From the NCBI RefSeq assembly GCF_910592395.1, contig NC_088326.1, positions 13,149,001 to 13,213,000 on the forward strand: a DNA stretch of 64,000 nt. The letters run 5' to 3'. The notes beneath the pieces were generated by a model. That model did not search any database, was not told the origin of the DNA, and saw only the letters and a program-made list of their open reading frames with translations. The stretch comes from Lineus longissimus (Eukaryota > Nemertea > Pilidiophora > Heteronemertea > Lineidae). The translations under genes and the position numbers were made by a program. Below, one piece after another: positions 217-43,054 of this stretch (within the stretch, counting starts at the first letter, position 1; every line of letters begins with the position of its first letter).

Positions 217-299
217 GATATCGGCCAGATTGGCATGCTCCATGCACCTTCATAAGTATCCTTTTGATACACAAGAATGTCCTATGATGTTGGAGAGTT
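217..299 (+). CDS. Alternative Cys-loop exon, version 5a
   Basis: This is an 83-nt exon, the size of the Cys-loop exon in vertebrate GlyR and GABA-A genes. The acceptor is tttcag at 211-216 and the donor gtaagt starts at 300. One base belongs to the preceding codon, and the exon leaves one base (T) for the next. It encodes [21 protein letters not shown], the disulfide loop that touches the M2-M3 linker during gating. The second version lies 530 bp downstream. Confidence 0.92.
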
Positions 300-3200
300 G
301 TAAGTCGATCGGTTCCTTCTATCATCGGACAGAGAGGGTGACGTGGTCAGCCACGGTTACAGTGGAAATGGTCAACGTTAACAAAGTTAATTTCTTAACG
401 TTTTGCCGGAAAAAGCACAATTTGAGAAAACCGTCCTTGGAAATTACAAAAATACTTTTTTTTTGTTAACGGACCAAATGTCGGAACAAATATGCTCCAA
501 TTGGCTATTGTTCTTCGGCATAGTCTTGGTTCCGGAGAATCTCTCTTTTGGCGCTGCAGCATGGCTCACTCTTTGTCCGCTACATCCGGGACCCAGCCAA
601 TGCACATTTCATGTCCATCGCGCTGCTAAAAAATGTAAACATTCCAATTTTTGGATAAATAACTAAAATCAAATTTGTTTAAAATCAGTTGGATCAAAAT
701 TGGTATTAGCGCGCGATTCATATCTGATCTTGACCTTTTGCATTGACCTTGACCTTCGTCACGCTCTCTGTCAGTGTTGTCCGTTTCTATGTTTACATGT
801 TATACACGCTAACTACATTATTATTTCAGAATCTCGGCTCGATTGGCGTGCTCGTTCCGCTTGCATAAATACCCTCATGACACACAGGAATGCCCAATGC
901 TGCTGGAGAGCTGTAAGTGGGACTATACTGCTTTAAATTGAAAGACGTCCATTATGGTCGGCCACGGTTAGAGTGGAAATAGTCAACTGTAACAACAGCC
1001 ATAAAAAGACGGCCATTAAAAAAGAAGCCAGGTGACCTGTTGACGAAGCCATTAAGATGGACACACACCGAGCCGATTCGGACCCGGTAGGAAGCAACTC
1101 CAGATATGTCTTCTGAAGATTCCGCCTCTTTCAATTTTTTAAAAATGTTTCAGAGACTTACAGTTACACGTCTCTGAGCACTTCAAGTAAAAACAGATGA
1201 TGCTATACCCCGAGTTGTGAATTCACAACCCCCTTTTCCTATCAGAGACTTACACAAAATTATGAGTACAGATCTGCCAGAGCCTATTTTTACGTCTTCT
1301 TTATCCCCTAAAGCTGTCACTATCTTTTAATGAAACATTGGCGAGCGTCTCCCTGTGTTGATCATGCTCATTGACCATGATAGTCATACAGACCATGATG
1401 GTCACTCACCGTCGAATGATCTGGAGCGTGTCTCCTGGGCATTGCGTGGGTTTCCTTCGCGGTGACCGATTGTGCTTACAACTTGTCTTGGTCATACTGA
1501 AACCATATTAGCAAGAAGCGACATAGAGCAGTCTTCCTATTGTGGTCCGAGTGGCAATGCGCAAGAGTCCGTTCACCACCTGTGTGGAGTTGTTTAAATG
1601 TATACACAACGCCCTCTTTAAATACCTTTGTGCACTACGTTTTAATGCTAAACCTCCCACAAATCCACACTTTGGTGGTGTTCTGTTTGCGCAAACTGAT
1701 GGGACTTCGTCGACGTTAAGGTCCTTGTACTTGGCATTAAACTACAAAAGTTAAACGTTTGTCAATTTGTTCCCTATGCTCTATCGGTGTGTGTCTGCAT
1801 TAAAGGTTCACAGGCTTGTGTCCCAACTCTGAGTAGTATCTCAGGTAAAGTTGAAATGTACGTTTATGTACGTCAGTTAATCTAATATATATGTCAAAGC
1901 AACGATGAAGTGTGACGGAAATTAACTGCGATGCTTGGAGTAAAGTCTGTTCGACAAGATTAATGGTAGAGCTTTGCTGTGCCCCAATTCGTTGATGATG
2001 TATATACACTATCAGTGTTGTTTTGGGACGACATACATGACATAAGCCCGCCGTATATTTGGGAAAGTAAAGCTCTACCTTGAATTGCTGAACAATTAAA
2101 ATACCCCAACTCCAGGGTCAACTCCTCTTCTAAAACACCTGCAACAACTGTTACCCATCTTACAAACCATTTAACGCCCCTTTAAATTGTTTGTCCGCTT
2201 TTTATAATGGCTTCAGAAGGTATTTTCAGAGTATAACTTGTACACTAATTACTTGTTCTGTCGTTGACGTCCGGGTCAGAGGTTCGGAGACACCCCGTAC
2301 ACCTAAACTGTAGTGTAAAAGCAATAAAATTACGTGTACACCATATACAGTGGAATTTCGTACATCAAGCCTTCTGAATTCAATTTAAAGCTCAATGTTT
2401 TTTCCATTAAAATATATGTTGCACTGACTGCTATCAAAATATTTCAGGATTTTAGTTTTGTGTTGGATTCCTTAAAAGGTATTTTAAGGTTTCCTCGCCT
2501 CACAATTTTAGGTTCATTTTGTTTTTTGGATTGCAGTATCATTTGACAGGGAAATAAACTATGTTTGTGGCATCAGTCAGAATAATCAACATTCCTTTAT
2601 GAAATATCATAAAAAATCATAAAAATGCCATGTAAAAGCACAAAATCTATATCGTAAAGTAGGCCTAGGTTTTTAGTGTGAACCCCACCGTAATTATAGG
2701 CGACATATAAATCAAGACAACGTATATATTTCTCTGAAAAATATGGTTCTTATCACAAAAAGTTTTTATCCGTTATAAAAAGGTATGCTTAAAAAATACG
2801 ATTACACAGTGTAGTAGTAGCATTCTCATATCCTCAAAACCATTTCACAATTCGCACACTACGCACACCACTTCATGCTACTGGCTATATTCATATCTAG
2901 TCTCTTCTGATTAGCTTCCGAATGTCTCACCAGGACTGATCAGTCAAATCGTCATTCAACATCTCATTCACCATGATTATTTTGCAATGGGGGATCGGAA
3001 ACTAATCTGCCCCTGCATCACCAAAACTATCCCACCACAGTTTGAATAACGGCACCCCAAGGTAAAAAATCTCGCTAAGACTCTTACATAGAGCTGACAA
3101 GCATGCATAAAAACCCTAACGGCCAAGTTAGAAAACACTAACGCCTGTCCGCCATGTTTGAACGACCGGTCAGCCATGTTTCGAAAGCCGTCAGATATGA

Positions 3201-6200
3201 TAGGCTACCAGTAGGCCGCAGTGGCGCTACCGTATTCAACAAACAGTGCACTGGATGTGGAGCACAGATATGAGTTCATACGTCTTACTATAAGTGGCCA
3301 TTTCGACCTCGCGCGACTAGTGATTGAGAAATCGAATGCTACCTCATCAGACAGTTCTTCAATAGACGCATGGTCTTAATAATACTAGCAAAGCGGGAGA
3401 TTGTTGAAACTGAATATGGTACACATGGTACAAAAGATGCCATTCTGTCAGCTTGTACGTGAAATACAAAACTGAAAAATATGTTGATTTACAACAACGG
3501 ATTCATGGCATAGTTGGTAAGACGGTAAGGGTCAAGTGGCATGGGTTCCTAGTTCGAATCCGCTCGAGGACATTTTTCATTTTTTTCTTTTCACCAGAGC
3601 GTCTCTGTGACCTGTCTCTTCAATGAACTTGTTGTTTGTGCAGTCAAGTGAGACCAGTGGCTGGGTGTCTATCATGTTTCAAGTGAAGTTGGTCGTTTGG
3701 TTGTCGGGCGTTTGTGTTTTCTGGCTTGGCCGTTGCTGCGTTACGGTTTTTATGCATGCATGCCAGCTTAAAGATCTTACCAGTTACATTTACATGTACA
3801 TGTACATCCATACGTGTTACAAGATTCTTGTAAAAATTCGTTAAATATCTTAAATGAGAATCGTACAAGAATCTTGTAAAGATCGTACATGTATAATGTA
3901 CAAGAAACTTAAGAAGACCTTAATCAAGAATGATACCGGTATGCAGAAGTTTTTTGTTGTTTTTTTTCAAATCTCTCAAGTTGGAACGATTAAAAATATA
4001 TACCGATGAGTTGACTTTTTGCTGAAAAAAACGAAATATATCCTAATGAATCCAGTTTGTTGGAACAAAAATGGATGTCTTTCACTTTGAAGCATGTGTG
4101 GCCCGCCATTTTGGTTTTGTTCGCTGGTCTGACAACGCTTCTTTGCTCAAAATTAATACAGCAAATACTACCTTTATTTTTGCAACACACGAAAATTTCT
4201 GAAAAACTAAAATTACACGATGAATATTTGAGCAGATTTTCATATTGAGAAAAATCGAGATTTTTAATTGGCTAAATCTGCAAAAATAAAACGCCCGAGA
4301 AAATTTGGGAGTTTGATAATTTGATATTTTTTGTTTTGAACGTTCAAAATAACATAGAAGAGTGTATTTTATTCGTCAGCTTAGTGATATGAATCTTTAT
4401 TTCCTACCGTAAGAAATCATTTAAGTAGGCCAAATAAATTAGCAATTCATGCTTATAAAACAGAATGAGAAAAGTTCTCTCAGCAAAAAAGACAAGTGTT
4501 TCAATTTGAAAATTCCTATAGGAATCTTAAACATTCTTATTTGATATATCAATCAAATTCTTGAACAGGTACATGTACAATCTGTACAAGATTCTTGTAA
4601 GATCTTAACTCAGAAGCTTTTAAAGATTCACTATAGAGGTACATATGAAACCAGATCGTAATTATACCCAAATTTTATCTAGTTTTTGACCTGGTTATTA
4701 ACTTTTTCAATCAATGCATCAAAATAAGCATGGCTTTATATGTTTACTTGCTCAAAACATGTCGTTGGGATCACTTGGTGCCATGGTAGCACTCAAAGAA
4801 CCAGTACATTGTTCATGCCCGGCTGGTCTATCAAAGGCTTTCGATAGCAAGCATAAGCTTGTCAACATAACCGACGCTTCTTTTCATAAAAACACATTAT
4901 CCTGTATAATTAATGGACGTACACGTCTAAAGATGCAACTCTTTCAGACAACTCATCTAATACTGCGTCCGTCTACATCTCATTGTTTATCTCAACAACA
5001 TCAAGACGCAGACACACCAGCAAATTGAATACGATGAACTTGGCTAATGTGTCCCAGATGATTTTTAGTAGCTTTGTTATTGCTTTCGATCGGTTTCACC
5101 ATGATATAAGACCATTAGCAAAACTTGAGGGAATACCTAAGCAAATGAATTGCTATAGAGCCAAATAATGTAGTTCTCTTATGTTTTCCTATGATATCTC
5201 AACAAAGACAGCGCAGTACATGAAGCACCAAAACAATAGGTTGTAACAGAACAATCACATTCCGCTCTCCAATCTACATCATCCAAAACACCAGACTATA
5301 ATCACAAAATGAGAAGTTAGTGGAAGGCTTGAGAAAACAAATCTCTCTTGGATCAAATGGTTGTTAAAACAGGAGGGTTTGCAGTCCATCTGGGTCAAAG
5401 AGCTTGTCAGATCAGCGACAATATCTCCATCAGATGCGCGCGTTCTGCTGTCTTCATGGGCAATGTTAATATCTTTCAATGCTCTTAGGATTATGGTGGT
5501 GGTGAATAATATTATCAGTGGTAAATATGTGGTCAATTCTAGTTGCTGTAGCAGATTGTCACAAGTCGAGAAGTTCAAGTATGGTTGAGAGTTGTTGATA
5601 GGTTTGGCAGAAGTTTTAAAACAGAACTTTTCAAATATAGAACAAGTTACATTGCTCTACCATTGGCAAATAATGCTCATACCAGTCGGAAATTCGGCTA
5701 ATATTCCTGTTTAAGACAACCTTCAGTTAACCAGTCTTTGTGCACTTTGATAGTTGCATATGTATTATTCAAATTGCACATGTGCATGAATAGTACGAAA
5801 CTGGCGTGTACGTATTAAAGATTATTTACACGAATATTACCGGAAATTTCGACCTTGGTGTAAACGTATAAAAAAGTACCAAACACGAATATTACCGAAA
5901 TTTCGACTTCGGATTAGATTATGATTTGATCGACTTGATCGACTTGATCGACTTGATACTAGACAAGTCGTTAGATAATTTTTATTGTGAGTTCGAAATT
6001 GAGCTATTAGAATCAATATTAGGCTTCAGCAACTGCAACATAATAATTGTATGCTATAAATGAGCGCTTTGAACACAGTCATCAACGCATTTGGTGCTGG
6101 GGAGCTTAAAGTTGACAGCATTCTTTAGAGCTTTTAAGTATTTTAATCATATTAACATTTAAGTACAACATTCCACTTTCTCCGTTATGCTTCTTTGCTA

Positions 6201-9200
6201 ACACAGTTTCGTTGTCATGTCATACACGGGCTGTGTCAGTCGTGAATCGTAGTGAAGAAGGTAGATTGTATTACACTTTTGTTATCAACTGCTTCATGGA
6301 AGGGTTTTAAACATAATCTAACTCATAATCTAGTCATGTTTTATTATCAACACATTAAGCTGAACTATTATATCTTACTTACCAAGCCGCGCATAGATTA
6401 CATGCAGATCCATATCTCTTTGAACATTGTATTGATGTCAATGCATGATTCGTGTACGTCGCAGTGTCGCCCCCTATTGTTTTGTTTCGTTCTGCTCCAG
6501 CCAGTTCCGTCATGTCCAAGTTGTACAAAGTGAATCCAACATCAACAGAAATTGAATTGAAAATAAGTGCAAAGAATTTGAAGGAAGTTAAGATTATTTA
6601 TGTCAGATTTGTCGTCGAATTTTTGTCTTAACTAAAAGACTTAATATCTAGAAAACAGTTTTAATCCACTCTGTGAAAAAACCATTCGGGGGTTTTCTAC
6701 TTTAAAAAGATAAATTTTCTTCGTCTATATTTATGTTAAAGAAAATGAAACAACTACTAAAACTTGTTAACTAACCCTTGTCGAGTTGTAGATGTCCTAT
6801 ATATATCTTCTGTGACGCTTTGCATGGCAAATATTTGTATTTCTGTAGCTAACAATGCATGCCTACACGAACCTATGTGCGCATGCGTGCGTATCTTATC
6901 AGCGTTGTAGTATCTCCATGACAATCTGTCTAATACAGCCTATCATGGCGGAGGGCCTACTTTAATGGTGGTCTCTAAGCTTAAAAGTAATTGGTATGTT
7001 TTACCTAAAACAACAGCAATAAGTGCACAGCAGCACTTTGCACTATGTATCCCCTAAAAGATATCTGCTGATGACATTTTATTGCCAGTGGGACAAAACT
7101 GGCTTTATCTTGTAATCCCAATTATATCTTTGAAACAACTTGAGATGATTTTATGCGGAAGAATAGATATGAAGCAATTAAACGTAAGGTGAATTGATTA
7201 GTAGGTCACTGCACCAAATTTAAATGACAAGTTCTGTGAATGAATGTGCCCTCTTTAAACTTAGGGAGCCAACAGAAATAGAGAAAACTGTTTGCAGGTG
7301 AATGTACAGCCATCATAGTTACTCTTGAGTTACTCTGTTGAATAGGTTGTACTACTGGTATTTTAAAGAGGCTACACTTATTCATATATCATTTAAAGGA
7401 AGATGAGTGACCACAGAAAAGAGAGCATAGTTACTAATTCATCTTCTGGTATCTGGAGGCTGGCTCACAGTTTAGGCCACAGACACCGTGTCAAAATCCA
7501 ACTGAATATATCTAGAGACCACCTCGAACATCCGTGAGACCAGATACAGTGTCCATGTCGACTATCTCGGAATCTCGCAATGACGTAATCGGGAGTTGAA
7601 CAGTTGTGTTCGTTTCTTGATGGAAGGGTGCATGTCTAAACCCTCTCTTTCTCAATTCCATAGTCGGGCACACCATGGACACCGTAATATTTAAATTCTT
7701 GGATGACAGAGACCCGGTCGAACACGACGTGTTAGACATGCCTCAATTCACTCTCGCTGACATTAAATTAATTGACTGTTCGCTTAATTATTCGACAGGT
7801 AAGTTAGTATTAAAGAGAATGGACGCCGAGATAGCAGGCGGCGGGTCGGTTGCGCGGCGCCTGCGTCTATGCGCACGGTTCGCTGAGAGTGCGGTCGCTG
7901 ATATGCCCAGGTTATCGTGAGAAAACAGCGGATGGAAATTTTTCTTAATACCAAAAATACAGATTCTAAAAAAAATGAGAAAAAAGACATTTGAGTATCA
8001 AAATTTGCGTCTGCCATTATTTTTAGTTATCTTCAAGCACCATTGGAGCTTGTTAAGACCAATTCTTAATTGGCATTTGTATCAGCCTGTGTTCCCTAGG
8101 ATGGTTTTTTTCTACTCCAAGAATCTCAGTTAAAAATGTTTAGTTAGGGAATAAACACTAAGATTCCCTGTCGTACTGAACTATTCTTTAAAAAAAATTG
8201 AAACCGTAACGGTTGTTGCATATTCAGCGATCCTTGACGTCACAGGCTCCTCGGAACGAACCCGTGGCGCCATCTGTTAAGGGCTCTTTCTTTTCACCTC
8301 ATTCTCAACCTGCTTGTAATTTCACCTCGTCCCTAGAACGTTTGCAACTTTTGGCTATTTTCAACTTTTTCAAATTTTACCGTGGAGCAACTAACATGGT
8401 TTTAGCGCCTGGACCGTAGACCCAAACTCCATTCTACTTGAAAAATCGGGCATGCGCATGCGAAAAAGAAACTTGAGCTTAAAGCGCAGCTTGTGATGAC
8501 GTCAGCCACATGAATTCCGTGACTGCAATTTTATGTTCAAAGATAAAATTCTAGGTCATCTTATTCAATGTTCTTACTCGTAACTCTTTCTTTCATTCTA
8601 ATAACAAAAACAGTGAAATACCGGTAACACGACCACTCATGGAATCGAGGTTGCATGGTCGCGTTACCGGGGTGGTCGCGTTAGTGAAGTTGAAAATCCG
8701 GGGAGAAATTAAGTTTTCCTGCAAAATTGCCAAAAATGTTGGCAAAACTTGTTCATAAGTTCAAAATTCTGAAAAGTTTTCAAAGCCAAAATTCTTTTGG
8801 GGCTGATGATGTTTCTTCATTTTGAGCAGAAAAAAAGTTTAAAAAATATTTGAACTGAGAAATTTTTTCATCCTTCAGAGTTGAACTTTTTCTTTAGTTC
8901 AAAATTCTTAAAAAATTTCAAAGCCAAAGTGTTTTGGGGCTGATGTTTCTTCATTTTGAGCAGAAGAAAACAAATGAAAAAAATATTTGGACTCAGAAAT
9001 TTTTTCATCCTTCCGAGTTGAATTTTTTCATAAGTCCAAAATTCTGAAAAACATTTTTTGGGACTGATGATGTTTCTTCATATTTTAGCAGAAAAAAGAC
9101 AAGCGAACAAATATTTGGACTCCTTCAGAGTTGAATTTGTTCCTTAGTTCGAAATTCTGAAAAAAATATTTTTGGGGGTGATGATGTTTCTTCATTTTTG

Positions 9201-12200
9201 AGCAGAAAAAAAAAAGAAAGAAAATATTTGGACTTGAAAAAAAATTTCATCTCTAATTAGCCGCAATCAATTTCAATTACAGAAGTCATGGCAGTATTCG
9301 TCTTTTCAGGCAATTAGGCCCTTAGGCCCTAGGTCGGGTTAGAGGGGTGAATTTGGTCATTGGGACCGCCCAATCCAGTTGTCGTGGTCTGGGTACCGGG
9401 GTGGTCGTGTTACCGGGAGCCTTGTAATAGTAATTAGAGAGGAAACCATTCGGGACCGGCGATTCTTTGTCGTCATAGTGGGATGGTCGCCGACCGGGGT
9501 TCCACTGCACAGTCATGTACAGTGCAGGCTGTCCCTGCCGCTAGCATCCTTCTTGTTGTCCCCTCAATAAAAAAACTCTCAAACGATGACGTCTGTTCTT
9601 TTTACCTTTATGGGAACTTTATGAGTAAGCCACTTCGGAAAAATTACCGAAGAAAATCCTATAAATGGGTCGTCTCCTACTTTCAAATATTTTGGAGTTT
9701 TACTGTCATTTGCTGGGAATTTTCATTTCATTTGGAGAATTATGTGCGCCGTTAGCCTGTTTTTGGGGTAACTAAATGCTAATGTCATGAAATAAACGAT
9801 GGGTGAACTAAACCAGTAATGTTTAGACGCCCTTCCCTCTTTCCCCGACATGTCCAAGTTGATGTACGTACCTTTATAGATGTTCTAGAAACGAGATGTA
9901 GTTTGTCGCCAACCGCACCCATGTTAGAAGTTCCACGGACTTTTTTGTATTTTCTCGTCGTTTGAGGCCATTCGGAAATTTTGTAAACTAACACAACTTT
10001 TGGTGTCTGCAGCCTACTAACATTTTCTTTTCTCAATTTTGTCTTATATTTGGGAAGTTTCTGTCTCCGAACAGAAGCAAAGGTGTCAGTTTAGTTTTTT
10101 CTCTTAAGTCACGTGATTTAACCTGTCAGATCACGTGCTATTTCATGAGGCTGGCGACATTCCTGATGCTATTGCAAGGTATGGTTTAGTCTTGCGCAAG
10201 CGGCTGCGTGCGTCTTATAGAATGGAGATACAGATCTTCGGTCGGGCCGTCTTCCTTGCCCAAGACCTCATCCGGGTCTTTTAGTCTGCATTAAGTTCTT
10301 CCGTACTTGTTGGAATAGAGTTTTTGAGATCTTACTCTGATTTCCTTTGACTAGTCTCAGTAGGCCGATAATTGCGAGATCATGCGAGAGTTTGCGAGAG
10401 GCGTCATGCGATTGAATTGAGGCAATTCGGGATCGTCAGAATTCGGTCGGCTCTTGCTCCATAGTCACGTGACCCTGGTATGTAATCATCCCCCGAGACC
10501 CATGTAGATAGTGTGAAAATTGTAGCTTTTTAAAGTGAGAATTCTCCCACCAGAGTGGGGCTTCTTTTTTTCTTTATTGAAATCGCGTGGATCATTTATA
10601 TATAAGTCGCGTGCGCATGTCTAACATTATTTCCGTATATGTTGTAAATGTTGTAATTAAAAGATGTTATAATTTTTGTTTTCCAATTTTGATAAAATAT
10701 TTTATCCGCAAATTTGAAATGGCTGTGTCTTCTAATACAGAGACCTACATGTCTCTCGAAATAGTCTTCTTTTGCTAGCGTCAGTAGCCGATCCCTCAGC
10801 GTTGCGAAATCTCTTCTGAGACCACAAGTACTGACTGAAAATAAACATTATATGATAACGGAGAAAAGACGCATGGCAATGCGGCAATTCTCATTCTACT
10901 TTCTCTGCTGGACGTGCGGCATTTATGCATATTCAGCATGTGGCTACGCGGTTCATTTAATATTTAGATATTTACACGCGCAGACATTCCGAATTATTGT
11001 TGTAGACATCATTCCAAAGGCTTTTTAGGCTCTCTCGTTTGGACTGAGCTGTGTATACCTAACCCTGCATGAAAGTCTTGCACTACAGACTCATATCTAT
11101 CATATATACGCTCTCTATTTGCTATCATCTATACGCATGCATACACAAGACGCATGGGAAATTAACTAAGCACATCGCACAACTGACAATAAAATTTGAA
11201 TTTGAAATTAAAACATGAAAGAAGAATTATATAAGTGTAGCGATGATTATTGAATGTGTATATTTTCGTATGAAAATGCATGACTGTGCGATAAAGCGAT
11301 GTATATTTATTGTTATTCAGTGGATTGAGTTATTTATACAATGTAATGTATGGAATTATATGTATTATGCACACTAACAAGAAATGAATCTCATTTTCAA
11401 CTTCATTTTCATAAATAGGTTTAGTATAACAAAATTCTCATGAAATGAAAACTGTATAATTCTAATTATTGCTTAGTCATTTCAGTCATCGAAATTATTT
11501 GGGATTTGAACCCAGAGATTTGGCAAGAAGATTTGACGAGCGCCTCTATGAAACGAAATAAAACATACTCGTAGGTTGTTGCCCTTAAAAGTTAAACAAA
11601 AATCTATAACATTGAAACACTTATAATGCATATTAAACGTGTACATTGTACTGGTTAATTCACTACTTAGAATATCATGTTTTATACACACCATACCACT
11701 TAAACAATTCACCGCCCCAAACCAGCAGGTTTGAAAGTTGTTCTCCCAGCATGCAGCAGGAAAGGTCACCTGACTCAATTAAATTATAGGGATTGTGCTG
11801 ATTAGAACCTGTCAAACTGGCTGGAGTATGATGTCTTAAAGCGCTACAGTTTTTACATAGATGTGCAACTACGATGTTTGCAGAATAACTCCTAAACGAC
11901 CTATCTTACTATTTTTGTATACAACCCTGCGACCTGTCGATCATTGTAGACCTTTTTTTATAACATATCCGTTCTGTTTGGGTCTCTTCTTAAAATTTCC
12001 GTTGTTTGATTTTTTTCATGGGTGTTCTATCATGGCACTGAGGGACCGGTGGACACGTGATTCAGCTGACCAATCATGTCTGCTGCAGATCACGTGACAT
12101 ACACCTACCACCATTTAGCCCATCTTTAGTTTTAAACTCATTGTTTTCCGTTTCAAATACCAGCAGCAGAACATGCGGCCATTTTGAAACCATGAATTCC

Positions 12201-15200
12201 CTCCTACACTTTAAGTGTCCCTCCTCATAAACAAATGGTCTTTATTTAGCTCGATTTTTGAATAATGACCTTTTAACCTTTCGCCCCTTTCCAGTCGGCT
12301 ATACCAGTGAAACCGTTGTATTTAAATTTTTGGACGACCGAAATCCCGTGGCCTTCGACGATATGGCGCTAGAGCTGCCTCAATTCAGTTTAAATGGCGA
12401 TCCTAAATTAAAAGACTGTTCGACAAACTATAGTACTGGTAAGTAACGGTAGAGGGAGTGATATTGCACGCGCGATATGCAAATTAGACAAAGCATGAGA
12501 AGTATTTTAGGTGTTGCTGTTGTTTCAACATATCTCGTCCCCTGAGTTTCGGCAAATTCGACTTATTCTGAGGTACAAGTGGATGACTGATCACCCCATC
12601 ATCTGCCTTCTTCTGTAGCCCACAGCCATGGTACTGTTAACGTCGACTGATGTTATCAACCACGTCAACAGATCTGCAGATCAGCCTTCTCATGATTTGA
12701 TGTTAATATTTGCTGGTCGCGCCCGTCATAGGCCTTTTTCACCTCCATGCACAGTATTCTCCAAATCACGCCGTGATCATATGCACCATATGACCTACAT
12801 ATGCACCATGTGATGTGAAATGCACTTATAACCAAGTCTGACAACAACTAAAATCCTTCTATCATTTGGAAAATCTGAGTTAAACTGTTTGCTTTGTCGT
12901 CCTATCTGATTCAGAAATCGAAACATTCTTTGGCCAACTCGGATGATGAAGTTATTTCAAGCTCTATAAAGCTTTGAAATTCAAATTGAGGGTTACCCAT
13001 AGAAAATCAAAATCCAAGCTCAGGAGTTAAGCTCAAGTTTATTGTATTTAATGAACATGACTTGGTACAAATCACTGATTCAGGCTGTGCATCAAGTCAC
13101 TCACATTCAAACTCCAAGCACTGGTCTGAGGTCACGGTGTTGAGGCTTACACTGCAGTGCATTATGGATTGAATGTGTATGTAGATACAGGTATGGCTGC
13201 ATGGAGGTAGGAGAGTGCCCGCACGTGCTGGATTAGTGTAGAAAACCGCGGTGCTTTGACTCAAGCGATAGCGTGATTCTTTAGGCATACAACAAGCGTT
13301 GAGCGTCGCATTAGAATGCATTTATAGAGAGCTTAAGAAGCATGTACGTGTTCATTTTCGTACGTAGGTTATTGCGTATGCAAATGGCCTATTGCGTCAC
13401 GAGTTTCATGATAATGTCATTGAACTATCCTCAACAACACACTCGTTACTACTTCTCAAGCTCTCTAACAGCGAAAACCTCTGTAAACTCAAATTTGTAT
13501 TTTGTTGCGAATGTGACCCTATTTTCACCAACGGCTACTTATTTCGATGATGTTCCTCTTCCATGTACACTTTATTAGAACTGTGTATACTCCTGCCGCA
13601 TCATTGAAATAAGCCAGGCAAAGGTCTGCTTCATCTATCAGATTAGTTAGATAGGTTTCTTTACAGTCTCTCAAATATGAAGTATCAAACTCGAAGCAAT
13701 GCCTTTTCTGTTTCAAACTCCTTTCTTCTTCTTTCAACTGCGCTGTCTTTTCATTTCAAACTTCTGTACTCTGTGAAATGCAAGATAAGTCTCGTGATTG
13801 AGACGGAATGGCACAATGATCATTTTTACGCCATACTGGAATCATTCTCTCAATCATGCCTTATAAGATCGTCATGCTTGTTCTTTGGGTCTAGTTACCA
13901 TGGTAACCCTTATGACACGCCACCTAGCGTTGTGTGTTTGTCATGCCAAGCTTCTCTATCGCTGTAGTTAGTTCTCAACTCTGCTGAAAGATGTCGTGTA
14001 TCGGAAATCTTTCCGCCATTTTGTTTGTATCGCATGAAACTGGGGTCTCAGTTATTTTCAAGTGAAGCGAATAGATGTTGTGACAGTATTGAACGGGCTG
14101 TACAGGGCTGTACAAGCATAACCGTATCATTTGTGAAAAGTTTGAACATATCAGCTTCAACTTGAATAACATTATGTCGGATAAATTGCGTTTCGAAAAT
14201 TCTAAATTTGGCAATGGCGTGGCACTATTGATATTATAATGCTACTAAAATAGGGCATCATTTGTTCAGAGGGAAATCTAGATAAGGCAAAGGGAAAAAA
14301 GTTTTTTTCTACTGAAATGCTGTATGTGTTATGGCTAGAACGTGAAATGTCGTACAGCTCTCCACCATTCTATTCAAATCTTATAGCCATTTACGTTATC
14401 ATCTGCGCATGCGCGAGGCGATATGGCTGCAATATCCCTCCCAAGCGCGTGAGATCTGTAGCTTTAAATGAACTGACTCTCTCATTCAGAGACTGAATCT
14501 GAAATCCGCCATCTGGCTTTGACTCTTTTTGGGTAGATAGAAAGAGCACGAAGCCTCAAGAGTATCCGGTGGGTGGTGGCAACACAACAGACGTACCAAA
14601 GATGGCGACCGTGGACAATTCCGATGGCAAATACCACATTCATTTGCCAATTCTCCCGGTTTGGTTTTTGACAATTCTAAAAGCCAAATCATAGCCATCA
14701 GGAAAACTGTTGTTTTACCATGCCCCTGCTGCAATGTATTAACATAGTGCATGGCCATGATCCACTGCAAGGCCAAGATACATCCTGTTCGCCATAAGTA
14801 AGTATGATATAGAACCCAAGCCTGGTTGGCCGACTGGAAACTAGAAATAAAGCTTCTAAATGTAATCTAAACCTATGTACCAGCTTCTAAATGTAATCTG
14901 TCGAGCTTACTTTTCAAATGGCAATGCTGTGTTGTCTATCTTTCTATTTTTAATGCGCCATTTCATCATTAGCGCTATGCTTTGATGTATTCATGCGCCA
15001 ATCTGCGCAAAAGATGGCGCACTGCGCATTGTGCGGCATCATGGCTATTCGCCACAATAAGTAAATCTACATGACGTCATACCTTGGCTATTTTTACAAG
15101 TTTTGAATGTATTACGTGACGTCATGCGCAAACAAGCGGTGTCGCGACAGCGTATGCGCACCTTTGATTATGAAGCGTCGTTCTAGTCGGCCACACCATG

Positions 15201-18200
15201 GATACAGTGCGATTCGGTTGGCTCGATGACATAGATACCGTAGAGAGAGGAGAGTACCTCGACTTGCCTCAGTTCGAGCTCTTCAATATCGAACTCATAG
15301 ACTGCTCAAAAAACTACTCAACAGGTAAGATTATTCAGGACACATAAGAAGTAAATGTGACTCATACTCTACTTGTAAAATGTAAAACGCGTAATTTTAA
15401 TTTCTATTGTGGTTGTGGTTTAAGTGTTAGGTTAGAGTCTTCTTGACTTTCTCATCTACACAGGTAATTTTGTAATTCTAGTGTTTTGCTCGTTTTCGTT
15501 TTTCAAATACGTTTTATACCCTAGCATGAATTTTGCGTTTATATCTAACCATAAGGTCCAGGTAAGATATAGACAAGAAGACTATTTGAAATACTAGCCA
15601 TTTTATTTACCATTTTCTTCAAGTTATTTAATAACCATATTATCATACCTCATTAATGTGTAGGATTATCACTTAACGTAATTTAGAGTCACCTGGGGTA
15701 AAATAATTTTTAATATTTTATGGCATGATTTTATGGAAGGGTCAATAACCCAACAATTATCTAACAATTTTCCAGAAATGTTTCTTTGAAGACTGTTTGA
15801 GGCGAAATCGTGTCTCTCATATTTTGGCAGAATATTTTTCAAAAATAAAAGTCACCAATTTTCACAATAAAGCTGAGAATAAACTTGAATATTTTGATTT
15901 TTTTCTGAGATTCACATGTATTTCTAGATCAATCAGTAAACACGTTCCTTCAGGGTTTTTTTAAATCCATTCAAGACAAACTCGTCAGAGGATGAGGTGT
16001 GATAAGATAATGCAATACCAGTATTCAGTTTACTTTACTGGCTTGACATGGCGAAACGTTATCATGAACATCTGTTATATTCATCTTTAAATCCCTTACA
16101 GTTTTGAACGTTAAGAATATCATTCGTTTGAACACTAGAAAATATAGCTTAATAGCCAAAGCAATTTTGTATACCGAACTTTTTTCGAAGTTATTTAAAG
16201 ACTAACTGTTCCTGTAACTCAAGAAACGGCGTTTCCTAATTGATAGAACTTTCGTATACTCTGAAAGTGTGTTCTATTCACATCCTTTGAGGAAGTCAAC
16301 AGCAACATCAGAACCAGTAGCGATTGTCTCCGTTTAGCATGTGTTCCATATTTCCAGCATTGGTAAACTATACTATTAGACGGAATGTGTCATGCAAGTC
16401 GCATCATTCGCACTTCAACTCGATCAGCTTAACCCTGACGACTGACATCATTGAGCTTGAAATAGCATCCGACCTTCAAATTTGCACCAAAAATACATTT
16501 AACTTGTACAGCATGAAACTTTCGTCTGTCCGAGTATGGCACATTACTCAAGAATTGCTTTGAAATTTCAGGAGCTTACCCCTGCCTTCAAATAAAATTC
16601 ATCCTAAAGCGGGACATCGGATATTACCTTATACAGGTATATGTGCCGAGTATTCTCATCGTGATTCTATCCTGGGTGGCTTTCTGGATCAACATCGAGG
16701 CCATCCCTGCCAGAGTCTCTCTGGGGCTGCTAACAGTGCTTACCATGACCACACAGAGTTCAGGAGCAAGGCAGGGCTTACCGAGAGTATCGTATATAAA
16801 GGTAATTAAGACGGGGCTTCCACGAGTCTCGTATATAAAGGTAATTAAGACGGGGCTTCCACGAGTCTCGTATATAAAGGTAATTAAGAAGGGTGTAAAG
16901 GTAATTACCTAAGACGGAGCTTTCTAAAAGTCTTCGACATAGAAGAAGCTGGTGATCCGGGTTTTATGTCTCATTTCGTCGACTTATAATTGTGTTTCTG
17001 AGAAAATTTTCCAATGAATTTAAGAATAGATGTAAAGCTACATTCTCAAACATTCCCACTTTTGATCTTTTTCCCCAGGCTATAGACGTGTGGATGTCCA
17101 TGTGTCTCGTCTTCGTCTTCACTTCGCTGCTGGAATTCGCTGTGGTCAATGTCTTCTCTCGGAAAGAGATAAAATTGAAAAGTATGCCGGATCCGGAAAC
17201 GATCCCTATGGGGGAGGTGAGTGATTTTCACGTGAGTTGCTTTCAGTAGGATGGTTCCTTGGCCCGCCGTTGGCGGTGCTGCTGGTAGCAGCGCCACGAT
17301 CGGCGAGTCAAAGAACCAGAGTAGAGCTTCACAACAGCTGGCTCAATTTTGATTAACTTGCGCTTACACTTAGAATTAATACTTGAACATAATCTGAACG
17401 ACTTTGCCAGAAATGATGCCTATGGACCACTACTAACTTAGGGGACTGGATGCATCGTTCATTTTACTCAGTATGGACCACATTTTCTTTAAAAATCAGG
17501 TTCTCTAGTCCAAAGATCATCTGAAAGTTAAAATGGGCAGAATTTGATTTGGTTAACGCCTTATGATCAGGCTTTGAGAGCAAATTTACAAGCCTAGGGT
17601 GACCTTTACCAAAGTGAAACTCGCTTTGGTCACGACAGTTCAAGTGTAAAATCAACTACATTTTGTCTCATGAACATTTTCAGACTGTAGGTATCTCTTT
17701 AATAGGCTATATAAATGCCACTGATTCATTAATTCCTTTACCACTTCTTCCTGCACTTTCACTATAATAATTACCTTTCCTAAAAGAAAACGAATAGTTT
17801 ATGCCATTACCCTGTGAACCACCCGGGTAAAGCATTTTGCCATTACCTAGTTCACCACCCTGGTAAATATTTAAAACCGTATTTTACTTCAATTGTGCAC
17901 TTTCAAATTAACTCTTTGTAATGTGATGTGTCGGTCATGTCAACCTGCATGCAGTGGATACAACTGTTTTACAAATCTTGGCAAAGAAAGTGCCCACATG
18001 ACGTTTTTCACCCCCTCAGGCATAAAATAATTCAAACAAACCTCACACCTCGGTTGTTCTATTGTGTTAAAAATACAACAAATTCATTGATGCTTGAGCA
18101 TAATCTGCAGGCTAAACCGACCTCCTTGACTGTTCTATTGTCTTAAACAAAGCTCACCCATGTGCTAGCTTCAACGAGAAAAGACATGCTTGAAACATCG

Positions 18201-21200
18201 ATATGTTTATTGTGTAACATTCCAATAAAATTACTAAAATGTCACAGGTCCAAAGTATTCGTGGTCAAGTCTTTGGTACATTGTAACTGGCAATGTCGTT
18301 CAACACGTTTCAAATCATAGGGTAGACTCCCAACAAAATGAGATGGTGTACAATTTCAAATCATAAAAGTTGGAAGACCCTATAATCCTACCAGCTTCAA
18401 ATTTCATTATCTTTTAAAACAAATGGTTTATGATGTTCTACATCCACAGCAACTGTGTGTTCCTGAGTAAGAAAAATCACATTTTTACCCTTTTGGGCAA
18501 TATTTGATATGAACACCTTCCCTTTTGTCATTGAACTTTGAGGAATGGATATTGAACAAGATTTTCAGCCTCAACACTGTAAAATGTAATTATAAATGTT
18601 CTCAAAGATTTTTCCAATAAGAGAATAATACACCTGAAGCGATAATTGACGGTAAAGCATGTCATAGCAAGCATTACACATTGCCGTTTATATCAAATTA
18701 GTGAAGGTTTGTGACCTGTACGTTATCACCCCTTACAGTTTAAGTGTAATGTATGTAGATGTTAATTTGCCAGACTAACATTTTCATTATAAACCTTTCT
18801 GAACATTACAATATTAGTTATTCTTTGAAAGTTTGTTTCATTTGTTATGTGGTTGTCTCGTAGTTGAAACTTTTACAACACCCTACACTAGCATAGTTAG
18901 CTCTCATCGCCAATGAACAAAGATTCTCTAGTTTCCCGAATCTGAGACTGCTGCATTAAGTCAAGGCATGGCCGCCACTAGGCCGAGTTCATGGTGTCAT
19001 GACCAACGGACAACTTGGTTTTCCCCACCGATCGCCCATCCCAATTGAACATATTGAATGGTATCAAACTACCATGAGCTGGATATCTTTGAAGACTCGG
19101 CTTAAATACTCCGTTTTGCCTTCGAAAGAACTACGAGAAAAGATTCCAGATTTTGCATCCGGTTACGCATGCGCATAGATAAGTAACCAAGATAATCAAA
19201 CCGTAACTACGGATAGTAATTCATGCGCATGCGTAATGTTTGCAAAACTGTGAACATTTTGTTCGAATTTCTGCAACCGCAATGCTGATTTAGTATCGAT
19301 CTCAAACAAAAATGTCCACTGAAAAAAAAATTGTACAAAAAACAGACACCTTACAAACAATGGCCGAGTCACTGTTTGTCAACAACAAATCATTTTATAA
19401 AATTTGTTATTTTCGTCTTACATTCATATTTACATGTACTAACCTTTTAGCAAAAAATATTAACGTTTCGAATACATTTCTACTGCAAGCAGTGGACACC
19501 TCTGGTAGGCCTAGAAGTATATGAATGTATAATATGCATTATACATGTTATGCATCATTATTACAAGTGTGGGATGACAGACTAGCTTTTGGCATCGAAA
19601 GGGTTAAATCCAACCTACCAAACGAACCAACTCCTAAGGTTGCGATTATATAGAGGTCACGTTTTCAAATGTAACTCGTCACAGTTCACTTTTCATGCGT
19701 GAAATGAAGAACGAACAAGTCATGTCCAAAGAGCGGGCTGCATACCTCACGTCGTGTTTTAAGCCTAAGTCACTTAACTATTGACTTGTGAAACATGACA
19801 AGTGACAACGTGAATCCTATATAACTCCGGCCTAATACGATACTGCATCACAATGCACATTAAATTAATTTTCGCTCTCACTTTATTTTTAATTCGAAAG
19901 ATGAGCAGACTGGTACGTTGCCTATTTTTTGTGATGTTATGGGCAGGTGTTTTTCCCTGTGGAATGAATGTAGCATTGGGTCAGTTATCCAAGGTCCGTG
20001 TTAGCCCTACATGCAGCAAAATTCACCTCCTTCCTTTGAATTTTTTTGCAACGTTTTTAATGTGTAGGTGCATATTTTCAAGTTCTCCTCACAATATCTA
20101 GGAGATTGTGTGAATGTTGCTAGAGGTTCCTTGAAAGTAAATTCTGGCTGCATGAACCCTTTTTTATAAAACGCTAAGAAAAAGCAACAGCGTAAGATGT
20201 ATTTGGCCCTCATAGATTTTTCACGGCTGTTGAAACCCCTACAGGAATTTCTCGAAAATGATTTGGGAGATTTTTTGCCAAATTCATCTCATGTTATTTC
20301 ACGAAATCCCTGGGTGTTTGCTCGAAAGCTGAAAATATTTGAAATACGTACTCTTGAAAACCCAGAGTAGACAATTTTTAAGTGTGTTAGAGTGTGTTTA
20401 TTTTATAAAAGTAGGCTACTCGACAGTTTTAAAACCTGGATAACTGACTCCAATCCTGGGGCAATGTTGACATCTTTGCCAAGCAACTGGTGCAAGTCTC
20501 TCGCCTCGCCACACTATCGTGCACGATCTTCTCTCGATGTTAGCAAATATCGCTGTCTTTCTTGTTCTGTTTCAACATAAACACAACTGCCAATGACGTA
20601 ATTTTCGGATCAGGTGATCAGATTCCACGGACCAATGACGCTTGAGGACGCAAATTCGAATTGGGATGACATGTATGAGGGATAGTATGCCCTTTCTCTT
20701 GAACTTGACTCGTATGCGATTGTACGGTTCTCCTTAAACGTTGTCTCTGGCACTTGTGCATACTGAGTTTAATTTCAGACCAATTCTGTCTCAGTCTGTA
20801 GAAGAGATTACAAATCTCGAACGAATGTTTATAGTTAGCAAAGGCTTGGCTCACAAACGAGCTGTCTTCATGGTGTTTGCTGAATTCCTACTGCAGATGT
20901 GTGTCTTTATGCTTTGTTTACATAGAGTTTACGCTGCCACTTGTAACGTGAAAACGAACAAGTCATTTCCCAAGAGCGGGTTACATATGATTCACGTGTC
21001 ACTTATCACCCTCATGTCATGTCTTGTTATGTCTTCAGGTCGAGGTCAGTTATCGAACTGACTAGTGACAAGTAAATCCTAAATAAACCCTTTCCGTACA
21101 GCAATATGACCCACAATCACGTGGATCGACGAGTCAAAATGATACACCGGTTAATGACGTAACGGGCCATAATGCACTCACCGGAACAAGTTACAGGAGC

Positions 21201-22607
21201 AAGAAATGATTCCGAAGAGTCTATTGTGGCCTGAAACGGTATATCGATTTGGGCCGCCGCCATGACAATGGGTGATATGAATAAAGACAAGCAAATGCTT
21301 TTATCTAAAACTCCATGTACATTTACACTTGACCTTTCTGTACAAAATTGAAGTAAAAGCATTTGCTAGACTTTATTCATATCAGCCAATGACTGGAGAG
21401 TTACATGCCCACATCTCCTACAACCTCGCATTTGGTTGAACAGCCCAGAGAGTATTCCACACTATCATTGCAGTACAAATGTGTTCACTTTGAAACAGAA
21501 CAATTTCTTTCTCTGCTTTCACTGTCCACCCATTGGTTCCTTTCCATACTGCTTATCTAGCTCTTAATTAGCTCAATAAGTTATGTTAGAAAGTACTTGT
21601 CAAACAGCGTCAGGTCTGGTGGAATATACAGTTGATTAGGTCTCCATGAAATAAATACACAGAACTTCAATTTGAGTAATCACATATAATTCTAGTTCCA
21701 GTGTAAACGTTTGAAATGTCCTGATAAGGATTCTGTTTTTAGATGTTAAGCACATAATAGAATCTTTTGTTACACGGACATTCCACACCGATTCCGATCA
21801 ATTGAATCGTTTCCAGTCGTTACCGGTGTGACAGCGGATATAGTCCCCCTGGAGTCATAGTCCGGTAGCATTGTATTTGACCAATTAAGCAGCATGATCT
21901 ATTGTACCGCTAACCCTAACCAAAACATTTAGCAATGCGGGCTATTGTTACACGGACTATCAGCCCTAGGACTACTATCCCTTGCACACCGGCTGTGAAT
22001 AGTAACGCTTCAATAAATATATATATTGTAACTATTACCTTTCGCAAACGCCCACAGACCTGCGTTGACTATTTCTGTGCTTTACATTTGTGTTCGAACT
22101 TTGTAGAAGAAATGAGTTTTCAGCAGCAAATACTATATTTTTTTATCACCATTTCATGACTCAACAGACGATAAAGGACTCTTTTAGGCATTACGCTATG
22201 GAAAGCCATACAGGATGACACTGAAGGAATGTGATCATTTGTATTGTTTGTATAAGGGTACAGCGAGGCCTTATCAAATGGTATCAGTTTCGAAGCTGTG
22301 ACACCAATCACCAATTAAGTACAAATTTCGCGTGAAATAGTTTATGGTATCTTACTTATTTGGTAAACCCTTGTGGTTTTGATGAAGAAACGATGTTTAA
22401 ACTTGTCTTCTAAGTTTGATCTTTTCGTTTTTCCAGGTGAACATCATTGTAGAAAACGGGAAGGAGCCTCGCCACACTAAGACAATGATTCCAGACCCGG
22501 ACGGTAAAACAAAAGCTCGGCGAATAGACAAACTTTCCAGACGGCTCTTTCCCATGGCCTTTCTTATATTCAACGTTATATACTGGGTCTTTTACCTAGT
22601 CATCTAA
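217..22607 (+). CDS. Glycine/GluCl-like Cys-loop anion channel gene, 3' part (5' end lies before the window)
   Basis: Subunit of a pentameric ligand-gated chloride channel in the plasma membrane. Coding exons seen: 217-299 or 830-912 (alternative), 7664-7798, 12295-12438 or 15187-15324 (alternative), 16572-16801, 17079-17216 and 22437-22607 (stop). All join in phase. The protein shows the Cys-loop (C-x13-C with YPFD), loop B (SFG[HY]T), LPQF, a second cysteine pair C-x10-C as in GlyR, GluCl and HisCl receptors, M1, an M2 starting with PAR (the anion-selectivity signature), M3, a short M3-M4 loop of about 60 residues rich in Lys/Arg and Pro, and M4 ending in YLVI. Loop C keeps the Tyr and Thr used for agonist binding in GlyR (N-Y-S-T-G). 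M2 has Ser at 2' and Leu at 6', where most relatives have Thr at 6'. The ligand cannot be assigned: glycine, glutamate, histamine or another amine are all possible. The N-terminal exons (signal peptide, loops D, A, E) are upstream of base 1. Confidence 0.93.
344..384 (+). promoter_or_regulatory. Conserved intronic element downstream of exon 5a
   Basis: A 41-nt segment starting 44 nt after the 5a donor matches 955-995, which starts 42 nt after the 5b donor, at about 36 of 41 positions. The two 83-nt exons match at only about 70 percent. Noncoding sequence better kept than its coding neighbour, at a fixed distance from the donor, suggests an intronic splicing element. The function is inferred. 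Confidence 0.55.
830..912 (+). CDS. Alternative Cys-loop exon, version 5b
   Basis: A second 83-nt exon with the same phases as 5a: acceptor ttatttcag ending at 829 and donor gtaagtgg starting at 913. It encodes [23 protein letters not shown]. It differs from 5a at the tip of the Cys-loop, with His where 5a has Phe in the conserved [FY]P[FLM]D motif. Including both copies adds 166 nt and breaks the frame, so only one can be used per productive transcript. Confidence 0.92.
955..995 (+). promoter_or_regulatory. Conserved intronic element downstream of exon 5b
   Basis: Partner of the element at 344-384, with the same orientation and nearly the same distance from the donor. The shared core reads GCCACGGTTA, then AGTGGAAAT, then GTCAAC. 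A splice-control role is an inference. Confidence 0.55.
3092..3453 (-). mobile_element. MITE-like element, family A, copy 1
   Basis: It begins with AGCTGACAAGCATGCATAAA and ends in TGTCAGCT. The interior is colinear, in reverse orientation, with the copy at 26443-26876: shared stretches include CCGGTCAGCCATGTTT-like, GGTAGCGCCA-like and CATCAGACAGTTC-like blocks. It has no transposase reading frame, so it is a non-autonomous element. The end near 3453 is degraded. Confidence 0.65.
3500..3580 (+). repeat. tRNA-derived SINE head or tRNA pseudogene
   Basis: TGGCATAGTTGG matches a polymerase III A box and AGTTCGAATCC matches a B box, about 36 nt apart, followed by a T-rich tail. A clean acceptor stem could not be closed by eye, so this is more likely a tRNA-derived SINE than a functional tRNA. 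Confidence 0.5.
3657..3768 (+). mobile_element. MITE family A, end fragment
   Basis: The stretch ending in TATGCATGCATGCCAGCT repeats the right end of the full copy at 26443-26876, including the upstream GTTTTCTGRCTTGGCCGTT block. The other end is not recognisable here. Confidence 0.55.
7664..7798 (+). CDS. Alternative ligand-site exon 6a (135 nt)
   Basis: Acceptor ccatag ends at 7663 and donor gtaagtta starts at 7799. The reading frame is [31 protein letters not shown]. It carries loop B, the beta8-beta9/loop F segment and the first cysteine of the second disulfide. The phases (two bases in, one base out) match both versions of exon 5 and the M1-M2 exon. It is the first of three alternatives. 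Confidence 0.9.
8611..9507 (+). mobile_element. Non-autonomous DNA element with CAGTG termini, containing a tandem array
   Basis: The left end CAGTGAAATACCGGTAACAC and the right end ACCGGGGTTCCACTG are inverted relative to each other. The left end repeats the family seen at 55221-55307 (GGTAACACGACCACTCATG, GGTCGCGTTAGTGA). No transposase is present. TIRs beginning CAGT recall pogo-like MITEs, but a TA target duplication is not obvious here. Confidence 0.5.
8745..9245 (+). repeat. Degenerate tandem array, about four units of 110-140 bp
   Basis: CTGATGATGTTTCTTCATTT followed by GAGCAGAAAAA recurs near 8802, 8940, 9065 and 9177, with GAATTTTTTC- and TTCAAAATTCTGAAAA-like spacers. Units shorten downstream. 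It sits inside the inverted-repeat element. Confidence 0.7.
9508..12294 (+). other. Intron between exons 6a and 6b
   Basis: No gene or further exon copy seen. It contains several CACGTG-core palindromes (for example near 10112, 10135, 10464 and 12090). Confidence 0.5.
12295..12438 (+). CDS. Alternative ligand-site exon 6b (144 nt)
   Basis: Acceptor ctttccag ends at 12294 and donor gtaagtaa starts at 12439. It encodes [34 protein letters not shown]. It has the same phases as 6a but three more codons in the loop F region. It keeps the GlyR-like FGYT in loop B, where 6a and 6c have FGHT. Confidence 0.9.
12439..15186 (+). other. Intron between exons 6b and 6c
   Basis: No coding sequence recognised. 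Two TGACGTCA palindromes lie at 15072-15079 and 15117-15124, and a GCGCATGCGC (NRF1-type) site lies near 14405. Confidence 0.5.
15187..15324 (+). CDS. Alternative ligand-site exon 6c (138 nt)
   Basis: Acceptor ttctag ends at 15186 and donor gtaaga starts at 15325. It encodes [34 protein letters not shown]. It is the most acidic of the three, and its 138-nt length equals the vertebrate counterpart. Its acceptor lacks a strong pyrimidine tract, which may make it the weaker choice. Confidence 0.9.
16572..16801 (+). CDS. Channel exon for loop C end, M1 and M2
   Basis: Acceptor tttcag ends at 16571 and donor gtaatt starts at 16802. It supplies the second cysteine of the C-x10-C pair, pre-M1 (RDIGYYLIQ), M1 ([13 protein letters not shown]), the M1-M2 turn with PAR, and M2 ([17 protein letters not shown]). 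It ends in the M2-M3 linker (LPRVSYIK). M2 has Ser 2' and Leu 6'. Thr at 6' is a known determinant of picrotoxin block, so low picrotoxin sensitivity is predicted. Confidence 0.93.
16776..16906 (+). repeat. 39-bp tandem triplication carrying the 5' splice site
   Basis: Three copies of a 39-bp unit (near 16776-16814, 16815-16853, 16854-16892) repeat the last eight codons of the exon plus AAG|GTAATT. Candidate donors stand at 16802, 16841, 16880 and, in a shortened fourth copy, 16901. All spacings (39, 39, 21) are multiples of three and the frame stays open. Downstream donors would insert 13, 26 or 33 residues into the M2-M3 linker. Confidence 0.85.
17079..17216 (+). CDS. Channel exon for M3
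   Basis: Acceptor ccccag ends at 17078 and donor gtgagt starts at 17217, phase 0 on both sides. It encodes [14 protein letters not shown] with M3, then a basic start of the intracellular loop (SRKEIKLK). It continues the M2-M3 linker directly (SYIK then AIDVW, as in GlyR SYVK-AIDIW). Confidence 0.93.
19710..19826 (+). repeat. Dispersed repeat, copy 1
   Basis: AACGAACAAGTCAT, AAGAGCGGG, GACAAGTGACAA and AATCCTA-TATAA blocks recur in order at 20953-21088. The element type is not determined. Confidence 0.45.
20953..21088 (+). repeat. Dispersed repeat, copy 2
   Basis: Colinear with 19710-19826, with an extra segment around 21010-21050. Confidence 0.45.
21269..21388 (+). mobile_element. 120-bp MITE, family B, copy 1
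   Basis: Termini TGGGTGATATGAATAAAG and CTTTATTCATATCAGCCA are inverted repeats, extended inward by AGCAAATGCTTTTA-type sequence. A copy of identical length lies at 32775-32894. There is no coding capacity. Confidence 0.8.
22437..22607 (+). CDS. Terminal channel exon: M3-M4 loop and M4
   Basis: Acceptor ttttccag ends at 22436, and TAA at 22605-22607 is the stop. It encodes a Lys/Arg-rich loop ([11 protein letters not shown]) and M4 ([20 protein letters not shown]). RIDKLSR-x-x-FPMAFL is the standard pre-M4 signature of GlyR and GABA-A subunits. Confidence 0.93.
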   Translation: MNIIVENGKEPRHTKTMIPDPDGKTKARRIDKLSRRLFPMAFLIFNVIYWVFYLVI

Positions 22608-27011: not shown

Positions 27012-27240
27012 TACTATCAAAAACAAACGCCTTTCGTCAAGATTTTGAAATGTTAAACTTGTTTGTTGTGTATGAATATAAATTGAAGAGACTACAGATA
27101 CTATGAATTAGATAAAGTTAAAAAGAAAACTTTTTGCGGGTGTTCTAGGCCGGGCTTACATTGGGTTCATATTTGTTACTTGTCACTGTTCACTTCTCAA
27201 GGAGCATTGGTTAGCAAATTTCAGCAAATTCTAAACAGTA

Positions 27241-27613
27241 GGTTTATCAACCAATATTTATTTACCAAATCTTTACAAACAGCAGGTAAGGTCGTCCAAT
27301 CAACTTTTTCATTCATCAAAGCTTTACAAGCAAACGGTCGACAAATCAACATTTTCATTCATCGAAGCTTTACAAACAGCAGGTCGACCAATCAACTTTT
27401 TCATTCATCGAAGCTTTACAAGCAAACGGTCGACAAATCAACATTTTCATTCATCGAAGCTTTACAAACAGCAGGTCGACCAATCAACTTTTTCATTCAT
27501 CGAAGCTTTACAAGCAAACGGTCGACAAATCAACATTTTCATTCATCGAAGCTTTACAAACAGCAGGTCGACCAATCAACATTTTCATTCATCGAAGCTT
27601 TACAAACAGCAGG
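27241..27613 (+). repeat. 46-bp minisatellite with 92-bp higher-order period
   Basis: About eight 46-bp units. Two unit types alternate: GTCGACCAATCAACTTTTTC ending CAAGCAAACG, and GTCGACAAATCAACATTTTC ending CAAACAGCAG. The true period is therefore 92 bp. Because 46 is not a multiple of three, the open frame running through it is not a credible gene. Confidence 0.9.
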
Positions 27614-42983: not shown

Positions 42984-43054
42984 GATATACTTGGTATTTG
43001 AGCTGCTGATATAGATTTCCTCTCCACTCCCTACATCCTCGCCAAAGTCCGGCA

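Follow-up and report, generated by a model that had tools for sequence, protein, structure and literature searches.

Organisation of the locus

The 64,000-nucleotide (nt) stretch of Lineus longissimus DNA analysed here (NC_088326.1, positions 13,149,001 to 13,213,000, forward strand; hereafter the window) contains the downstream part of a gene predicted to encode a glycine-receptor-like channel subunit, in which two adjacent clusters of tandem exons precede a single set of pore exons. All of the exons described below lie on the forward strand. The first cluster consists of two versions of the Cys-loop exon, exon 5a (217..299) and exon 5b (830..912), each of 83 nt, and the second of three versions of exon 6, namely 6a (7664..7798, 135 nt), 6b (12295..12438, 144 nt) and 6c (15187..15324, 138 nt). 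Alignment with glycine receptors (GlyRs) showed that exon 6 covers the last part of loop B, all of loop F and loop C up to its midpoint. The downstream exons occur once each: exon 7 (16572..16801, 230 nt), which encodes the second half of loop C, M1, M2 and the M2-M3 loop; exon 8 (17079..17216, 138 nt), which encodes M3; a 12-nt microexon for the residues MSRL (19901..19912); and the coding part of exon 9 (22437..22607), with M4 and the stop codon. Exons 1-4 are located upstream of the window start, and two is therefore a lower bound for the number of exon 5 copies.

All five alternative exons have AG...GT borders in the window sequence. In both 5a and 5b the opening base completes a codon begun in the preceding exon, and the closing base is the first of a codon continued in the following one; exons 6a, 6b and 6c likewise all start in one phase and end in one phase. 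Adjacent homologous exons of equal phase characterise mutually exclusive clusters, and both exon 5 and exon 6 show this pattern. Translation of either exon 5 version reveals two cysteines 13 residues apart. The first-pass annotation had described two 83-nt exons and three of 135, 144 and 138 nt, with splice sites and equal phases, followed by one set of M1-M4 exons. Its coordinates were confirmed to the base, and exons 7, 8 and 9 were found as described, with the addition of the 12-nt microexon.

Identity of the encoded subunit

Three protein searches were made against a database clustered at 90% identity, from which the best 120 of 1626, 2583 and 2441 matches were taken; the third search scored only the 8000 candidates that shared most words. 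The top listed match was database protein P0001, a Lineus longissimus 'glycine receptor subunit beta-like isoform X3', which is 100% identical over exons 5b, 6b, 7, 8 and 9 and includes the microexon residues MSRL. P0001 contains the domains PF02931 (expectation value (E) 3.5e-47) and PF02932 (E 8.9e-39), identifying it as a Cys-loop (pentameric) ligand-gated ion channel, and a PAR motif before M2 (PARV in exon 7) points to the anion-selective branch. The nearest solved structures in the PDB were GlyR alpha-2 (E 4.8e-73), the GABA-A receptor beta-1 subunit (1e-58) and GluCl (1.5e-50).

A tree was constructed from 43 proteins, which included no GABA-A outgroup and none of the verified GluCls of Schistosoma and Aplysia. 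The window gene fell within a clade (support 100/99) whose 26 rows are lophotrochozoan and flatworm proteins, and was excluded from the chordate glycine receptor clade (5 rows, 100/98). Its nearest neighbours in the tree are P0003 of Tubulanus and P0119, which has a long branch (89/77); these belong to a group of seven that includes Owenia P0008/P0027 and Macrostomum (86/88), and the Owenia genes with exon 6 variants fall in a neighbouring group of 11 (97/96). Identity as Rdl or as an ecdysozoan GluCl was ruled out by the ranking of PDB structures, the tree and the residues of the ligand site. From its sequence the gene is classed as encoding a glycine-receptor-like lophotrochozoan channel subunit.

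We compared ligand-site residues in a table of 32 proteins. P0001 has arginine at position 101 (loop A) and alanine at position 129 (loop E), where the four chordate rows have alanine or threonine, and serine, respectively. P0001 thus departs at both positions from glycine receptors, which are distinguished by a serine at 129 and no arginine at 101. Lophotrochozoan GluCls are distinguished, in the accessible parts of PMC4338433 and PMC4178172, by a loop A arginine (PMC4338433), the lack of a glutamate where loop B begins, and a loop E serine; P0001 shares the arginine (R101) and differs in the other two features (E157, A129). All 19 clade rows in the table show this mix: they have both the arginine and the glutamate, and their residue at the serine position is A, V or T. 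The annelid channels Alpo5 and Alpo6 are gated by glycine, gamma-aminobutyric acid (GABA) and taurine, according to the accessible part of PMC4801368. Our guess for the window gene is an amino-acid-gated anion channel.

The residue at M2 6', encoded by exon 7 (16572-16801), is leucine. In the table of ligand-site residues, chordate rows have threonine at this position, and lophotrochozoan and flatworm rows have leucine in 25 of 26 cases and valine in one. The leucine may confer low picrotoxin sensitivity.

Divergence and selection among the exon copies

Exon peptides were used as queries against the whole window, and rows with E below 1 were kept. The 5a and 5b peptides matched each other (E 1.8e-13), as did the exon 6 copies (E 1.8e-14 to 2.6e-7), and no convincing further copy was detected elsewhere in the window, the best match outside the gene having an E of 0.043. 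Exons 5a and 5b are identical at 61 of 83 bases and differ at 4 of 27 residues. Between them there are 14 synonymous and 7 non-synonymous differences (pS, the proportion of differing synonymous sites, 0.86, and pN, its non-synonymous counterpart, 0.11; P = 5e-6, binomial test with a null of no constraint), with synonymous sites saturated at this pS. A deficit of amino-acid changes was also observed for 6a/6c (P = 6e-6), 6a/6b (P = 0.002) and 6b/6c (P = 0.018), the P values of these four pairwise comparisons being uncorrected. The exon copies are old duplicates under purifying selection and, because they also share phases, borders and open frames, are unlikely to be relics.

Among the four residues changed in exon 5 is the one that follows the YP proline of the Cys-loop, which is F in 5a and H in 5b. 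In exon 6, position 161 is H, Y and H and position 200 is L, T and K in 6a, 6b and 6c, respectively, and loop F varies in both length and sequence. The residues that we take to be agonist contacts in GlyR numbering are alike in all versions: E157 is present in 5a and 5b, Y202 and T204 in 6a, 6b and 6c, and F159 is created across the 5/6 junction in all six combinations. The first-pass annotation had proposed isoforms that differ in agonist site and gating. The versions differ in the Cys-loop, at positions 161 and 200 and in loop F, with the four agonist contacts constant, and we therefore favour the more modest reading that the versions tune the receptor rather than provide for a new ligand.

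Joins permitted by the reading frame

Translation of wrong joins indicated which of them the frame would tolerate. Joining 5a to 5b produces a TAA at the junction, omission of exon 5 leads to an early stop (translated with 6c), and omission of exon 6 produces a TGA at the junction (translated with 5b). The frame therefore guards against faulty exon 5 joins and against transcripts that lack exon 6 altogether, but sets no limit on how many exon 6 copies are joined. By eye, the donors appear to be of the U2 type, and the shortest intron between alternatives (5a-5b) is 530 nt, so that mixing of U2 and U12 sites or steric clash would be an unlikely mechanism of exclusion.

The only combination directly seen is 5b+6b, as protein P0001. 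P0001 represents 10 member sequences clustered at 90% identity, and this member count and the name 'isoform X3' fit several annotated isoforms, without showing which. An isoform built of 5a and 6c is 93% identical to P0001; since this exceeds the 90% used for clustering, isoforms of this type would be hidden in the P0001 cluster. The six isoforms proposed at first pass can thus be divided: the phases permit all of them, 5b+6b is seen, and the other five combinations are inferred. Use of all exon versions appears likely.

Exon 5 and exon 6 in related proteins

Among the matches listed, 187 of 188 proteins contained a match to exon 6 and six contained two; 181 of 188 contained a match to exon 5 and four contained two. 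The double exon 6 matches of P0124 and P0160 are far apart, as though two receptors had been joined in one model, and those of P0004, P0005, P0071 and P0076 are adjacent; the double exon 5 matches are far apart in P0124, P0160 and P0161 and adjacent in P0071. No other convincing exon 5 pair was present among the 188 listed proteins, where clustering at 90% would hide isoforms that differ in exon 5 only. The pairs in the sturgeon protein P0071 were set aside as a likely artefact: neither its two exon 5 copies nor its two exon 6 copies differ from each other, and its source label is unverified contamination.

Multiple versions of exon 6 are also seen in models of the annelid Owenia fusiformis. 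The models P0011 and P0017 differ within exon 6 and nowhere else, and P0004 contains their two versions one after the other. Likewise, all differences between P0010 and P0005 fall within exon 6, of which these two models contain three versions. Because of the identity outside exon 6, each pair is taken as one gene, and the models appear to represent two genes in each of which exon 6 has alternative copies. A tree of exon 6, constructed for shared versus independent duplication, had 46 columns and left 12 of 17 inner branches open. As a separate observation, the related receptors P0001/P0015, P0003/P0031 and Owenia P0004, P0005, P0008, P0010, P0011, P0017 and P0027 come, within each species, from contigs listed with the same length, and are therefore probably on one chromosome in each.

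A duplicated intronic element downstream of exons 5a and 5b

A 41-nt element is present in the intron behind each copy of exon 5, at 344..384 (forward strand, 45 nt after the 5a donor) and at 955..995 (forward strand, 43 nt after the 5b donor). The two copies are identical at 36 of 41 bases, with a score of 31 compared with 12.2 for the null (standard deviation 1.4, 100 shuffles). This likeness exceeds that of exons 5a and 5b themselves, and the intron on either side of the element gives a poor alignment. A search of both strands of the 64 kilobases with a 32-base consensus, allowing up to 3 mismatches, detected these two sites and no other. It is plausible that the element is a bound splicing signal retained after duplication. 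TGCATG was absent from the four stretches around 5a and 5b, and shorter splicing-factor motifs were too common to be useful.

Inverted repeats of at least 18 nt numbered 37 in 913-16571. The 25 longest were inspected by eye, without a shuffle control, and since none had a one-to-many layout, docking/selector pairing for exon 6 was rejected. There was no Rfam match in the window at the gathering threshold.

Weighing the evidence for alternative use of both clusters

The 2 x 3 arrangement is real and probably functional. We assign a probability of roughly 0.8 to the interpretation that this is a nemertean glycine-receptor-like gene with two adjacent clusters of alternative tandem exons, one exon of each being spliced onto a common pore. 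Exclusivity of exon 5 would follow from removal of faulty joins by nonsense-mediated decay, and the choice between 5a and 5b could be steered by a protein bound to the 41-nt element behind each copy. The exon 6 version would be picked by trans-acting regulators. The swaps might then tune coupling, through the Cys-loop, and agonist sensitivity, through loops F and C, of an anion channel.

Several observations weigh against this interpretation. Exons 5a, 6a and 6c occur in none of the listed proteins (best 120 per search, where 90% clustering would hide them). The joins 6a+6b and 6a+6b+6c remain open throughout, so that the frame forbids 5a+5b but permits exon 6 doubles. Two exon 6 copies are adjacent in P0004 and P0005 (Owenia) and P0076 (amphioxus); double inclusion is a possible explanation, and gene-prediction error could be another. 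Folding of the 41-nt element was unremarkable (z = -0.55 and -0.72), and its pairing partner was no better than those of shuffles (11 of 20 as good); with fold and pairing both at shuffle level, we rejected an RNA hairpin or a pairing partner, and the role given to the element here is a guess. Finally, comparison of the exon 6 flanks (600 nt on each side, six comparisons) produced only one weak match above shuffles, upstream of 6a and 6b, with a score of 17.5 against a shuffle maximum of 17.0.

The absence of 5a, 6a and 6c from the listed proteins would be accounted for if 5b+6b alone formed the working transcript and the other exons were ancient copies that seldom, if ever, enter a transcript; by eye, moreover, no other alternative exon has a pyrimidine tract as weak as that of 6c. 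We nevertheless consider this unlikely, in view of the open frames, the intact splice borders, the deficit of amino-acid changes in all four comparisons, the 10 member sequences under the isoform X3 name and the different exon 6 copies employed by the Owenia models.

Less probable still is that the exon 6 copies are non-exclusive and that the gene regularly makes subunits in which the loop B-F-C segment occurs two or three times in succession. The in-frame joins and the adjacent copies in P0004, P0005 and P0076 are in keeping with such subunits, and silkworm alpha6 transcripts contain exon 3a, exon 3b or both in tandem (accessible part of PMC2045683). However, the fold should suffer if a beta-strand segment occurred more than once, and Owenia also has single-copy models that are alike outside exon 6. 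Moreover, gene finders tend to chain open exons. The possibility that the assembly is at fault, or has set haplotype copies side by side, can practically be dismissed: the sturgeon P0071, with its identical repeated exons, suggests that such cases occur, but nothing in the window supports one here, where about 27-42% of aligned bases are unlike between copies, which are 0.5 to 4.5 kilobases apart and have different introns.

A tandem repeat at the exon 7 donor

The donor of exon 7 is carried by a 39-nt tandem repeat (16785..16893, forward strand; 2.8 copies, 97% matches). Donor-like AAAG/gtaatt sites, all in frame, follow positions 16801, 16840, 16879 and 16900. The first is the one used in P0001, and splicing from one of the later three would give an M2-M3 loop longer by 13, 26 or 33 residues. 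A repeated M2-M3 loop was found in none of 159 related proteins. The array looks young and so may be neutral. If the microexon or these tandem donors were optional, six isoforms would be a lower bound.

The Cys-loop and the M2-M3 loop are in mutual contact in receptors of this kind. Because the two touch each other, it is conceivable that the choices of Cys-loop, loop B-F-C segment and M2-M3 loop length are coupled, giving dozens of receptors, though we regard this as very doubtful. If true, splicing would set the coupling interface of the receptors.

Other features of the window

Long leucine-rich-repeat open frames are present on opposite strands at 27838-29523 (reverse) and 31073-32296 (forward), with common stretches by eye. 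At 27087-27692 (forward), open frames extend over a 92-nt repeat (27289-27605, 3.4 copies, 98%), in which all three forward frames are open, and a 68-nt tandem repeat occupies 37198-38126 (13.7 copies, 96% matches). An open frame at 43010-44089 (forward) has a domain of the Anp1 glycosyltransferase family (PF03452, E 2.1e-51), which is known from fungal mannan synthesis, and one at 49386-50732 (reverse) is TRIM-like, with RING and B-box domains.

Comparison with known systems

In the accessible parts of the cited papers, insect channels provide a precedent for each half of this arrangement. The insect GABA receptor RDL, like the nemertean gene, is an anion-channel subunit with two clusters of alternative exons (exons 3 and 6). 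Loops C and F vary with the choice of its exon 6, and splicing in Drosophila affects agonist potency (PMC2064938, PMC4019635). The other RDL cluster is exon 3, near loop D, and not the Cys-loop exon, and the subfamily and phylum differ. Exon 4/4' of the insect nicotinic acetylcholine receptor (nAChR) alpha4 subunit changes residues near the Cys-loop, as here, and subunits with exon 4' assemble less well (PMC2064938, PMC2045683). It differs in being an nAChR subunit for which this is the sole cluster named, and in that the exon also alters loop E.

The six-way combination also has precedents in the same accessible texts. In most insects named, nAChR alpha6 has a 2 x 3 design (3a/3b and 8a/8b/8c), and six of six combinations were detected by reverse transcription PCR in Tribolium (PMC2064938, PMC1919356), where all six combinations of two clusters were detected for RDL as well (PMC2064938). 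The alpha6 clusters are exon 3 and the M2 exon, again in an nAChR subunit.

Closer relatives vary exon 6. The Owenia models (P0004/P0011/P0017 and P0005/P0010), from related genes of another lophotrochozoan, have different versions of exon 6 in the corresponding position, but belong to a neighbouring subclade and lack exon 5 variants among the listed proteins, where 90% clustering would hide them. In vertebrates, GLRA2 exons 3A/3B are alternative exons in a glycine receptor ligand domain, and the four fish models inspected carry both copies in one protein; unlike in the nemertean gene, the exon is exon 3, the change is small and there is one cluster.

The first-pass annotation knew of no gene that varies the Cys-loop exon together with the loop B/F exon. 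We likewise found no earlier report of both clusters in one gene among open-licence PMC papers, most subscription papers being outside this set, and the joining of the two appears to be new. Variation of the loop C/F segment in insects, in annelid models, in the nemertean gene and perhaps in amphioxus suggests that one part of the receptor has been used for tuning more than once. In the nemertean gene the Cys-loop, through which the signal reaches the pore, has alternative versions as well, and agonist sensitivity and coupling could therefore be set independently in one gene, which would make it a natural experiment on the coupling of binding to gating.

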